Positions 32,993 to 37,503 of a stretch of 37,734 bases of DNA are shown piece by piece. How positions within the stretch are numbered: position 1 is the first letter of the stretch; each line of letters starts with the position of its first letter. This DNA is from Thermoflexales bacterium (lineage in GTDB: Bacteria > Chloroflexota > Anaerolineae > J036 > Brachytrichaceae): contig JANWVF010000027.1 in the NCBI GenBank assembly GCA_025056965.1, forward strand, positions 1 to 37,734. Direction: 5' to 3'. The notes beneath the pieces were generated by a model. It had not been told where the DNA came from. It did no database searches and saw only the letters and a program-made list of their open reading frames with translations. A program made the translations under genes and the position numbers.

Positions 32993-35005
32993 CTATTTAG
33001 CGGCCTGCTCCTCCTGGACGATAAATTCGATCACGTCGCCCGGTTTGAAGCCCTCGAAGCCCTCGATGCCTATGCCGCACTCGAAGCCCTGGCGCACTTC
33101 CTTCACGTCCTCGGTCAACCGCTTGAGCGAGGCAACCGATCCAACGTGCAACACCTGGCCGTCGCGCAGGATGCGCACCTTGGCGTTGCGCATGGCCATG
33201 CCGCTCGTCACGCGTACGCCGGCAATCACGCCGACCTTGGAGATCTTGAAGGTTTGCTTGACTTCGGCGCTGCCGACGACCTTCTCCACGATCTTCGGCG
33301 CGAGCAGACCCTTCATGGCCATCTCCACATCCTCGAGCAGGTTGTAAATCACGTCGTATAGGCGGATGTCCACGTGGTTGCTCTCCGCTTTGCGCCGCGC
33401 GGCCGTGTCCACCTCGACCTCGTATCCCAGGATCACGGCGCCGGATGCAATGGCCAGGTTGACATCGCTCTCGGTCACGTCGCCGGTGCCTTGGTAGATG
33501 ACCTCGAGACGGATCTCCTCGCCCTTCTCGCTGCTGAGGGTGTTGTTGAGCTTTTGTAACTGCTCGACGATCGGCTGGAGCGAGCCTTGGTTGTCGGCCT
33601 TGATGATGAAGAACATCTTCTTGGCCTTGCTGGCCTTGGCCAGCGCGAAGTATTGCTCCAGGCTGGTCGTCCGTTGGGCGCTGCCCTCGCGCTCGCGCTT
33701 GGCTTGGTGCTGCGCGGCGAGCGCGCGCGCAGTGCGCTCGTCCTCGACCACTTCAAGGATATCCCCGGCGATCGGCACGTCCGACATGCCGGTGATGCTG
33801 ACCGGCACCGACGGACCGGCGCGCTTGACGCTTTGGCCGCGGAAGTCGAACATGGCGCGCACCCGGCCGTATACGCTGCCAGCCACGAATGCATCGCCGA
33901 CGTTCAGCGTGCCGTTCTGCACCAGCACCGTAGCCATCGCGCCCTTCGACTTGCTCAGCTGGCTCTCGATGATCGTGCCGACGGCGCGGCGGTTAGGGTT
34001 GGCCTTGATCGTATCGAGCGATTCCGCGACCAACAAGATGCCTTCGATCAGGTCCTCGATACCCTTGCGCTGTTTGGCCGAGACCGGGATGAAAAGGGTG
34101 TTGCCGCCCCATTCGTCGGGCACGAGGCCGAGCTCGCTCAATTCCTTCTTCACCAACTCCGGGTTGGCGTTTGGCTTGTCAATCTTGTTGATGGCGACGA
34201 TGATCGGCACTTGGGCCGCCCGGGCGTGAGCGATCGCTTCGCGCGTTTGGGGCATCACGCCGTCGTCGGCTGCGACCACCAACACTGCGATATCCGTCAC
34301 CTGAGCGCCGCGCGCGCGCATAGCCGTGAAGGCCTCGTGCCCCGGCGTGTCAATGAACGTCACCTTCTTCCCTTGGTGTTCCACCATGTAGGCGCCGATG
34401 TGCTGGGTGATGCCGCCGGCCTCTGCGCTGGCCACGTCCGTTTTACGGATGGCGTCCAGCAGGGACGTCTTGCCGTGGTCTACATGCCCCATCACGGTCA
34501 CGATCGGCGGACGCGGCTTCAGGGCGCTTTCGTTCTCGGCTTGCTCCTTGGCCAGCAGGCGCTGCTTGAGGGTCATCACCTTTCCACCGGCCGGGGCAGG
34601 CTTGCCGTCAGGGGTCGTGCCGATCTCGGCCGGCAGCTGGGATTCCACTACGGTCGGGGTGGGTCGCGCCTCCCAGCCGAATGCGCTCGCCACGATAGCC
34701 GCCGTGTCGAAATCGAGCTGCTGGTTGATCGTCGCCATCACTCCGTTCTGCATCAGTTCCCGAATGACGTTGATCGGGCTGACGTTGATCTTGGCGGCCA
34801 AGTCGCGCAGCGAGATGGACTCAGGCAGCTCGATCACCTTCGGTTCGGCCGGCTTGGTCGGCTTAGGCTCGGCCGGCCTGGCCGGCGGTCTAGTCTGGGA
34901 TGGGCCACCGGATCGCGGCGCGTCATGGCGCGGATCGCCGCCGCGTCCGCTGCCGCGATTGCCCTGGGTCGGGTTCTTAGCAGGAGTCTTCGTCTCTACC
35001 GCCAT
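32993..35005 (-). CDS. infB: Translation initiation factor IF-2
   Basis: I choose the ATG at 35005 (670 residues, [10 protein letters not shown]), because GAGAGGTGAT lies 5-6 nt before it; a GTG at 35014 is inside that site. IF-2 is the GTPase that brings fMet-tRNA to the 30S subunit and joins subunits. Residues about 55-110 are the IF2-N domain ([27 protein letters not shown]). The G domain begins about residue 165 with [12 protein letters not shown], then [15 protein letters not shown] and [11 protein letters not shown]. Domains II-IV follow, ending [26 protein letters not shown]. The N-terminal linker is short (about 55 Pro/Gly-rich residues), so this is a compact IF-2. The upstream leader is highly structured. 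Confidence 0.98.
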
Positions 35006-35022
35006 ACAGATCACCTCTCTTT

Positions 35023-35230
35023 GCTGCGCTCAGCAGCGATGCACCAGAGTGAGCAGGCATTCGAGCCAACCACCGTTCAACGGCGGCTGGCGCAGCGTTC
35101 ACTCTCATCTGTTCCTTGTCGGCGCATCGCCGGCGCCGATAATAGCAACGCAGGCTTACGAGAAGCCTGCGTTGCTTCGAGTCTGCTGAAATACTTCAGC
35201 GTTCGAGCTTATCGGTTGGCGCTGCCAACC
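35023..35230 (-). ncRNA. Structured leader of infB: six potential hairpins between ylxR and infB
   Basis: In infB-strand order the potential stems are: 35230-35214 (GGTTGGC/GCCAACC, 7 bp), 35200-35185 (GCTGAA/TTCAGC, 6 bp), 35175-35145 (GCAACGCAGGCTT stem, 13 bp, 5-nt loop), 35139-35119 (TCGGCGC/GCGCCGA, 7 bp), 35090-35066 (10 bp with two G-U pairs, TTGAA loop) and 35037-35023 (GCTGC/GCAGC, 5 bp). The G-U pairs in the fifth stem become A-C mismatches on the other strand, which favours an RNA role in the infB direction. The first stem follows the ylxR stop directly and the last ends 7 bases from the GAGAGGTGAT site. No ORF is evident in this gap. I do not recognise a known RNA family. Confidence 0.5.
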
Positions 35231-35512
35231 TTACTCGAACTGACTGAAGAACGCCAGAATGGCTTCCTCATCTTCCTTCAAAACCGGCTGGCCGAATTCG
35301 GCCTCCAGCCGCTTGAGCTTGATCGCCTGTTCCGCGGCAGCACGGCTTTTCGATAGATATGCGCCTCGGCTGCCCGGTCGCTTGCCCGTCAGATCAATCA
35401 CGATGTGACCGTCGTCCGTGCGGATCAAGCGAATCATATCCCGCTTTGGGTGCTGTGTGCGCGTGCCGATGCAAGTGCGCATGGGCACGTGCTTGCGCTT
35501 CGCTTTGCTCAC
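35231..35512 (-). CDS. ylxR: YlxR-family RNA-binding protein
   Basis: This 93-residue protein starts at GTG 35512, 15 bp after the nusA stop. It has the YlxR core: KHVPMRTCIGTRTQHPKRDMIRLIR, DLTGKRPGSRGAYLSKSRAAAEQAIKLKRLEAEFG. The first knuckle reads RTCIGTR where most members have RTCIGCR, so the second Cys is Thr. YlxR (RnpM) is a nucleoid/RNA-binding protein that in Bacillus modulates RNase P. The usual neighbour ylxQ (L7Ae-like) is absent, and the gap to infB instead holds a structured leader. Confidence 0.92.
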   Translation of the reverse strand: MSKAKRKHVPMRTCIGTRTQHPKRDMIRLIRTDDGHIVIDLTGKRPGSRGAYLSKSRAAAEQAIKLKRLEAEFGQPVLKEDEEAILAFFSQFE

Positions 35513-35527: not shown

Positions 35528-37387
35528 TCAGAATTCCAGATCGTCCGGGTCTCCGTATCGCCTGGGTTTGCGCACATGATGGGTCACGACGCGGCCTAGC
35601 TCCTCGTCATAGACAAGCAAACGATCCTTAGGAGGCTTTTTGCCCTTCTTTTCTTTCTTGCGCGCCTTGGCTGCCGCGGCCTCGTCGGCGAGGTCTTCTT
35701 CGCCGTCGTCGCCTTCTTCGTCGCCCTCGCTCATGGCCTCGATGAAGTATTGTTGCGCTTCCTCGGTAGTCTCCTCTACCTTAGACGAGGGCGTCGCCGT
35801 TTCGCTTGGCGTGTCGCGGCCGTCATCGGCTCCGGCTGCGGGCGCCTGTGGGGCCGCCTTCCACTGGCCGACGACCTTTTCGAGGGCTTGCTTGATCTCG
35901 TTCAGCGCCTTTGGACCGATGCCCTCGATGGCCAGGAAGCCCTCATCGCCGCGCACGCCGTGCTCAAGCAGTTGTCCTACCGAGACGATGCCGGCGCCGA
36001 TGATGTGTTGGGCTACGCGAGGAGACAAACCTAGCTCCTCAATCGGCATGCCGTAGGCCGCTTGAGGGATGGCCGCGAGAGCAGCTCGGCGCGCCTGCTG
36101 ACGATCGTCGGCTTGCGCTTCGCGGGTGATCGGCTTGGCTTTATGGCTGTCCGATTGGCGCGCGACTTGGTAAGCGTGTACGCTATCCACTAAGCGCTTG
36201 ACGAGTATGAACTCATCAGGCGTCAGCGGCGTTGGCAGTGCGCGCTGGCGGACGAGCAGCTCACGCAGCGAAGGCAGCGCCTGCACGATGTCTTCGCCCA
36301 CCCAGGCTTGCAGGTCGGCGTCTGCTGACAGCTTATCGAGTGCTTCACCCAGCGCCTCGCTGCTGCTCTTGATGTCAATCCGCCAGCCGGTGAGCCGAGC
36401 AGCCAAGCGCGCATTTTGGCCCTCGCGCCCGATCGCCAAGGAGAGTTGATCGTTAGGCACGATGACGAGCGCGCTCTTCTCGCCGACAGGATGCACGGCC
36501 ATCACCTTAGCCGGGCCGAGCGCCTTGGCGATGTACACCGTTGGATCGGCGCTCCATTCGATTACGTCAATCTTCTCGCCGTGTAACTCGTTGCTGATGT
36601 TCTGGATACGCGCCCCGCGTTGTCCAATGCAGGCGCCTACGGGATCCACGTTGGGCTGTAACGCGGCGACGGCAATCTTCGACCGTGCGCCAGGCTCGCG
36701 GATGATGGACTTGATCTCGACCAAGCCATTGGCGATTTCGGGCACTTCAATCTCCAGCAAGCGACGCAGGAAGTTCTTGTGCGTGCGGGATAGCGTCACT
36801 TGAGGGCCGCGGCCGGTGCGCTTGACCTCGGTGATGTAGGCGCGTACGTATTGTTGAACTTCGTATTTCTCGCCCGGGATTTGCTCTTTGCGCGGCAAGG
36901 TTGCCTCGATGCGACCCAGGTTGACCACCACGCCCGCGCTGGTCACGCTTTGCACCATGCCCCGCACGATCTCGCCCTCGCGCTCGATGAACTGGTTATA
37001 TTGGAAGTCGCGCTCGGCTTCGCGCAGCTTCTGGACAATCAATTGTTTGGCATTCTGCGCGGCGATCCGCCCGAAGTCTTTGGGGGTGACGTCTACCATG
37101 ATGCAGTCGCCGAGTACGGCGTCTGGCTTTTGCTTCAAGGCGTCTGCCAGCGAGACTTCGGTGCGGTCGTCCTGAACCTCCTCGACGACTTCTTTTTCGA
37201 CGAAAATGCGCATATGGCCGCTGTCAATGTCCACGACAGCAGCCACGTTTTGGCTGTTCATCACGTTGGCGTATTTGCGATAGGACTGCACGATCGCGCT
37301 TTCGACCACCTTAGTGACGATTTCGCGCGGCAGACTTCGCTCGGCGCCGATTTGATTCAGAGCAAGAGCAAGTTCGCTTCTCTTCAT
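35528..37387 (-). CDS. nusA: Transcription termination/antitermination factor NusA with long C-terminal extension
   Basis: This 619-residue protein has the NusA N-terminal domain (about 1-130), S1 domain (about 135-200) and two KH domains with GQRG (255-258) and GREG (320-323). The normal short bacterial NusA ends near residue 345-370. Here a helical linker continues, then a helix-hairpin-helix/SAM-like repeat at about 445-505 (LSPRVAQHIIGAGIVSVGQLLEHG, FLAIEGIGPKALNEIKQAL), and a low-complexity tail. The tail has an acidic patch (about 554-569), a Lys-rich patch (about 572-590) and a conserved-looking end, DEELGRVVTHHVRKPRRYGDPDDLEF. The start ATG has GAGGAAA upstream. rimP, the usual first gene, is absent; an IS1-like transposase fragment lies upstream on the other strand. 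Confidence 0.97.
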   Translation of the reverse strand: MKRSELALALNQIGAERSLPREIVTKVVESAIVQSYRKYANVMNSQNVAAVVDIDSGHMRIFVEKEVVEEVQDDRTEVSLADALKQKPDAVLGDCIMVDVTPKDFGRIAAQNAKQLIVQKLREAERDFQYNQFIEREGEIVRGMVQSVTSAGVVVNLGRIEATLPRKEQIPGEKYEVQQYVRAYITEVKRTGRGPQVTLSRTHKNFLRRLLEIEVPEIANGLVEIKSIIREPGARSKIAVAALQPNVDPVGACIGQRGARIQNISNELHGEKIDVIEWSADPTVYIAKALGPAKVMAVHPVGEKSALVIVPNDQLSLAIGREGQNARLAARLTGWRIDIKSSSEALGEALDKLSADADLQAWVGEDIVQALPSLRELLVRQRALPTPLTPDEFILVKRLVDSVHAYQVARQSDSHKAKPITREAQADDRQQARRAALAAIPQAAYGMPIEELGLSPRVAQHIIGAGIVSVGQLLEHGVRGDEGFLAIEGIGPKALNEIKQALEKVVGQWKAAPQAPAAGADDGRDTPSETATPSSKVEETTEEAQQYFIEAMSEGDEEGDDGEEDLADEAAAAKARKKEKKGKKPPKDRLLVYDEELGRVVTHHVRKPRRYGDPDDLEF

Positions 37388-37419
37388 GCCCGATTTCCTC
37401 GCGCGTTATAGAAAAGAGA

Positions 37420-37441
37420 AAGTGGGCTTATTGACCCACTT
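37420..37441 (-). terminator. Terminator-like hairpin (possible attenuator) in the nusA leader
   Basis: On the minus strand AAGTGGG (37441-37435) pairs with CCCACTT (37426-37420) around an 8-nt loop, and the U-rich TTCTCTTTTC follows. It lies between the nusA promoter and the nusA start, 30-50 nt before the ATG. This is the arrangement of an intrinsic terminator used as an attenuator. Confidence 0.55.
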
Positions 37442-37475: not shown

Positions 37476-37503
37476 AGTTTACCCGGATTTTTAAGGTTGT
37501 CAA
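37476..37503 (-). promoter_or_regulatory. Promoter of the nusA-infB operon
   Basis: TTGACA (37503-37498) and TAAACT (37481-37476) are 16 bp apart in an AT-rich stretch that contrasts with the coding sequence. The start would be near 37468, giving a leader of about 80 nt that includes the hairpin at 37420-37441. Confidence 0.65.

Follow-up and report, generated by a model that had tools for sequence, protein, structure and literature searches.

A conserved terminator-like hairpin between ylxR and infB in a family of Anaerolineae, most likely a transcription attenuator

The minus-strand leader separating ylxR from infB in the window (the whole stretch of DNA analysed, 37,734 nt) contains a hairpin, hereafter the infB hairpin, that is found together with a T-rich tail in 26 of the 27 family genomes examined, always between these two genes. 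Judged from the sequences, it is a real, undescribed and family-wide regulatory element, most likely an attenuator. The reading that we favour, and consider probable, is that the hairpin and its tail form a leaky intrinsic terminator attenuating transcription of infB, with NusA as the best candidate for the factor involved.

Results

The ylxR–infB leader

The genus of the window is Candidatus Roseilinea-like (Chloroflexota, class Anaerolineae; named Roseilinea below), and the genes nusA, ylxR, infB, rbfA and a DHH-family gene follow one another on the minus strand (Table 1). The ylxR–infB gap, given as ~215 bp in the initial annotation, measures 225 nt from the ylxR stop at 35231 to the infB ATG at 35005. 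The accompanying statement that the other gaps of the operon are short holds for nusA–ylxR (15 nt), but not for infB–rbfA (74 nt). All potential stems reported for the gap exist (minus strand, 35214–35230, 35185–35200, 35144–35176, 35119–35139, 35066–35090 within 35046–35105, and 35023–35037), and the last of them stops just short of the infB ribosome-binding site AGAGAGGTGAT, as had been claimed; this Shine–Dalgarno (SD) region is mostly unpaired in the predicted fold. The description of these stems as six consecutive hairpins needs revision, however, as there is no single fixed structure and, in the preferred fold, the last three merge into one long arm at ~35026–35136. Folding of the leader on the infB strand gave z = −5.2, with 0 of 200 shuffles equally good, and the opposite strand also folds well (z = −6.0). 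Since any set of inverted repeats folds on both strands, the folding score alone picks no strand.

A search of the leader against the Rfam 15 covariance models (gathering score; E ≤ 10), riboswitch, T-box and ribosomal-protein leader families included, returned no match, and neither did a search of 20 related loci. Likewise, no account of an infB leader element or uORF in Chloroflexota was found in the literature collection that was searched. The suggestion that the element is possibly previously undescribed thus withstood the Rfam check. The gene ylxQ, noted as missing, is absent not merely at this locus: L7Ae/YlxQ (PF01248) was not found in the entire genome, which is 99% complete. An RNA bound by YlxQ was rejected on the absence of this cognate protein, and no observation ties the leader to the loss of ylxQ.

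Table 1. Features of the nusA–infB region in the window
Feature	Position	Strand	Sequence or remark
nusA, first gene of the operon	35528..37387	minus	
ylxR (PF04296)	35231..35512	minus	
infB (translation initiation factor IF-2)	32993..35005	minus	ATG 35003-35005
infB Shine–Dalgarno region	35010..35020	minus	AGAGAGGTGAT
Putative attenuator/terminator (infB) hairpin	35144..35176	minus	perfect 14-bp stem AGCAACGCAGGCTT / AAGCCTGCGTTGCT, 5-nt loop
Family-wide core of the infB hairpin	35147-35173	minus	AACGCAGGC...GCCTGCGTT
T-rich, interrupted terminator tail	35136..35146	minus	GCTATTATCGG in the window; most of the genus has GTTGTTGTTG, others TTTTTT
Long stem-loop arm before the infB RBS	35026..35136	minus	genus level, weak covariation
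Outer part of the arm	35121-35131 with 35035-35045	minus	
Middle part of the arm	35046-35105	minus	AGAGTGA/TCACTCT
Inner part of the arm	35066-35090	minus	10 bp
Small hairpin	35185..35200	minus	GCTGAAGTATTTCAGC; retained in modified form by most of the genus (by inspection)
Small hairpin directly after the ylxR stop	35214..35230	minus	GGTTGGCAGCGCCAACC; GGTC...GACC in several Roseilinea relatives (by inspection)
nusA-leader terminator, rimP-leader type	37410..37441	minus	AAGTGGGTCAATAAGCCCACTT-TCTCTTTTCT (GGGY...RCCC + T stretch); conserved in the family
Promoter-like site upstream of the nusA leader	37476..37503	minus	TTGACA-16-TAAACT

Conservation and covariation of the infB hairpin

The gap was compared in the window and 26 relatives of its GTDB family, representing 8 genera. 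Between genera the full leader cannot be aligned, and what recurs in nearly all of them is the AACGCAGGC–loop–GCCTGCGTT hairpin followed by a T-rich tail. A covariance model located the hairpin in the window and in 25 of 26 relatives, only at the ylxR–infB place within 484 kb; the figure for the relatives holds by construction, as the model was built in part from these. This does not apply to the other Anaerolineae families, where the model did not find the hairpin at 87 infB loci (203 kb). The sole examined family genome without the hairpin (G022; L011, L150) has a ylxR–infB gap of just 42 nt.

The window's stem is perfect, as first described, although its length is 14 rather than 13 bp. Across 23 aligned sequences the core CGCAGG/CCTGCG is invariant and 6 of 12 pairs never vary, and the flanking pairs covary. 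Of the pair cells 95.3% are paired, compared with 28–51% when slid by 1–3 columns, and double-changed cells number 11 where 3.1 are expected (0 of 500 shuffles). In genus g6 one A-U pair of the core is replaced by G-C, and the one-sided core changes (G007, G010, G011, G012) are all A-to-G or C-to-T, so that a G-U pair is kept on the infB strand only. The comparison of homologous gaps that had been proposed as a check on the leader thus revealed both conservation and covarying flanking pairs in the family.

The hairpin also has the appearance of an intrinsic terminator. Its local minimum free energy is −16 to −27 kcal/mol in 25 members, in keeping with a stable GC-rich hairpin, and a U-rich tract is present in 25 of 25 (6–9 T per 10 nt counted from the last two stem bases), interrupted in the window. 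Counted over 12 nt from the stem end, T averages 7.3 against a background of 2.65 and is enriched in every family member. The window's own tail is weak (GCTATTATCGG), and a simple terminator-consensus scan left the hairpin in the window unflagged.

The bare hairpin pattern is single-copy in most family genomes, and a repeated element was rejected on this basis; among the few second copies, those inspected have neither ylxR nor infB beside them. Outside the family the pattern occurs in 18 of 368 genomes of the class, and the six occurrences inspected are likewise not adjacent to either gene. As a control, the tmRNA terminators of the same genomes were compared, and no stem sequence was common to them, even among members of one genus. 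Ordinary terminators in these genomes thus keep no stem sequence, which argues that the stem of the infB hairpin is under a constraint that they do not feel. In combination, these comparisons give the initial idea of a cis-acting RNA controlling infB one hairpin that is conserved family-wide in position, stem sequence and covariation, from which control of infB itself would follow by interpretation. Of the alternative then offered, a processing or termination region, the termination variant fits best in view of the hairpin and its T-rich tail; the decisive stem had not been singled out.

The remaining stems appear, from the genomes compared, to be genus-level at best. The long arm is recognisable in most Roseilinea relatives, exists only in Roseilinea and closes just before the infB ribosome-binding site; double changes affect only 4 of its 33 pairs among 7 close relatives, and the arm is regarded as unproven. 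The reported 10-bp stem, whose two G-U pairs hold on the infB strand alone, was recovered as such (CCAGCCGCCG/CGGTGGTTGG, 35066–35090); it forms part of this arm and is restricted to the species of the window.

The nusA leader and known systems

A related element is found at the head of the operon. The short nusA leader ends in AAGTGGGY...RCCCACTT and a T stretch in nearly all family genomes with a readable nusA start, genus g6 being the exception, and most relatives carry TTGACA...TAGACT/TAAACT at the place of the promoter-like site. This hairpin has the signature of the rimP-leader (GGGc...gCCC and a T stretch, <130 nt from the first gene), with GTGGGY...RCCCAC and TTTT located ~30 nt before nusA; in the window the c-g pair of the signature is U-G. 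An Rfam search of the nusA leader gave no match. RimP (PF02576) was found in none of the 28 family genomes, by a search that detected controls in 10 of 14, and no rimP gene therefore follows the nusA hairpin. Naville and Gautheret proposed that the conserved rimP-leader stem is read by NusA or RimP (PMC2965389). With RimP absent from 28 of 28 genomes, it cannot be the factor at these terminators, and by analogy the persistence of a rimP-leader-type element in such a lineage would favour feedback by NusA.

The rimP-leader (PMC2965389) shares with the infB hairpin a short intrinsic terminator within the nusA–infB operon, an unusually conserved stem, no visible antiterminator and suspected NusA feedback. 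Conversely, the two differ in position and stem: the rimP-leader precedes rimP/nusA and has a GGGc...gCCC stem, whereas the infB hairpin lies between ylxR and infB, not at the operon head, and reads CGCAGGc...gCCTGCG. Because the window has a rimP-leader-type element upstream of nusA as well, the infB hairpin is most readily taken as the operon's second conserved-stem terminator, with a stem sequence of its own. NusA-dependent intrinsic terminators of Bacillus subtilis, for which interrupted U-tracts are typical, likewise consist of a hairpin and such a tract (PMC8060035); they are experimentally defined and have no common stem sequence, and the infB hairpin may be likened to them by its U-tract alone. 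The Escherichia coli metY-(rimP)-nusA-infB operon offers the same genes and operon feedback (NusA autoregulation; cold-stress infB expression, PMC6511841), and the available part of this account describes no conserved terminator directly before infB, unlike the situation in the window's family.

Mini-ORFs and terminator-like hairpins in the same gap across Anaerolineae

The ylxR–infB gap was also read in ~85 Anaerolineae genomes outside the family, gaps of 130 nt or more being counted as long. Unexpectedly, the majority of these other families have a mini-ORF with a strong SD there. It was present in 32 of 46 non-family long gaps; the antisense strand gave 3 of 46, and eight alternative start triplets gave 2–7 of 46. 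Overall, 37 of 70 long gaps contain one, whereas shuffled gaps averaged 5.8 and never exceeded 10. Of 43 mini-ORFs of up to seven codons, 23 from ten families consist of exactly three codons, with differing residues (MAN, MSN, MRN, MST, MNH...) and stop codons. Examples are found in L256 (G129), L257 (G106), L230 (G054), L259 (G227), L171 and L172, with MAN, MAD, MST or MSN directly followed by a stop and some start-stop cases (ATGTAA). In 33 of 37 leaders, the predicted fold pairs the SD region of the mini-ORF with sequence further downstream, often 35–60 nt past the start.

Within the window's family, a short ORF precedes the terminator in genera g7, g5 and g8, and Roseilinea has none. Genus g7 (L015, L016, L017, L012) has a conserved mini-ORF encoding MTETL or MSETL and a stop, with an SD segment GGAGCTTAAC complementary to a downstream GTTAAGCTC, ~60–80 nt before the terminator. 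In genus g2 (L024, L025, L026) an 11-codon ORF, MCLHRRVSLVN, is located upstream of the terminator and changes between species only synonymously, as judged by eye. A short ORF before the terminator or infB is reminiscent of leader-peptide/uORF attenuators, but here it has only 1–5, mostly 3, codons, its residues are not conserved and it is absent in the window's genus. Terminator-like hairpins of their own occur in the gap in family f10 (L239, L240, L242, L244, L248; CCGGCACGGT...ACCGTGCCGG-TTTT) and in part of f16 (L253, L264, L276; AACCGCCGCCGG-like), suggesting repeated evolution.

On these patterns the ylxR–infB gap looks like a class-wide regulatory leader. We put forward, tentatively and as something that may well prove wrong, that it acts for IF2 as a sensor of translation initiation: a mini-ORF, usually of three codons, with its SD hidden in a hairpin would report the efficiency of ribosome initiation and feed back on infB via structure or termination, and in the window's family this device would be coupled to, or replaced by, the conserved-stem terminator.

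Discussion

The conservation, pairing, tail, position and near-uniqueness of the infB hairpin, all visible in the sequences, point to termination in vivo, to control of read-through and, by analogy, to a role for NusA. Polymerases that have passed ylxR would partly stop at the hairpin, and the fraction reading through would set the expression of infB (and rbfA). No infB promoter was found when the infB strand of the ylxR–infB gap was scanned, and in genus g2 only ~40–50 nt separate the stem from the ATG; infB must thus be reached by read-through. Since the stem sequence, and not pairing alone, is unchanged throughout 8 genera, a factor is probably involved, which would read either the stem or the termination step. 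Being encoded just upstream, NusA could in this way act as a negative feedback factor at both conserved-stem terminators, that of the nusA leader and that ahead of infB.

A different trigger for the same attenuator would be translation, with a ribosome finishing ylxR (in the window) or a mini-ORF (in other genera and families) choosing between the terminator and another fold, and no part for NusA. The short ORFs upstream of the same terminator in g7, g5 and g8 (MTETL, MNRNR and MRT, each with a stop), the class-wide enrichment of mini-ORFs and the position of the window's ylxR stop, 57 nt before the stem core, agree with this. Still, pairing of the hairpin 5′ arm with upstream sequence as an antiterminator remained mostly within the shuffle range (best cases 2–3 of 100) and is unsupported, the window's genus lacks the mini-ORF and the fixed stem sequence is left unexplained, so we regard a translation-driven switch as rather unlikely. 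A role in RNA processing or mRNA stability also seems unlikely; the hairpin would then be, for example, a site for RNase III or RNase E/Y or a protector of the 3′ end after ylxR, separating the nusA–ylxR and infB messages, and its T-rich tail would be incidental. Processing inside the E. coli metY-nusA-infB operon is known, and the adjoining arm at 35026–35136 resembles a processing substrate; that arm is confined to Roseilinea, however, the T-rich tail is enriched throughout the family, and double-strand nucleases do not need the conserved stem sequence, as distinct from its length.

The hairpin might also be nothing other than the terminator of the nusA–ylxR transcript, unregulated and followed by a separate infB promoter, in line with its T tail and with the 150–200 nt that follow it in some members. 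The lack of a promoter-like site on the infB strand, the short stem–ATG distance in g2 and the failure of ordinary terminators in these genomes to keep a stem sequence make this quite improbable. We give least credence to a transcription factor binding this site as a DNA operator. The near-perfect palindrome with its invariant half-sites would suit an operator, but the loop, and hence the half-site spacer, varies widely in length across the family (including G013), which no rigid dimer tolerates; this favours an RNA element, and the operator was rejected on it. Moreover, every one-sided change leaves a possible G-U pair on one strand, and the T tail is always on the infB side. Attenuation at a conserved-stem terminator, with NusA as the candidate factor, is therefore the interpretation that we retain.

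IF2 and NusA are near-universal, and how their operon is balanced is hardly known outside E. coli and Bacillus. A conserved-stem terminator before infB, in combination with a rimP-leader-type element in a lineage without RimP, argues for NusA rather than RimP as the feedback protein, a question dating from 2010. The class-wide three-codon mini-ORF, in turn, points to a simple way of sensing translation initiation itself. Conserved-stem terminators were already known from the head of the nusA–infB operon, and the infB hairpin is new; its mechanism beyond being terminator-like is what we infer. The hairpin very probably serves as a switch controlling the amount of IF2 that is made.
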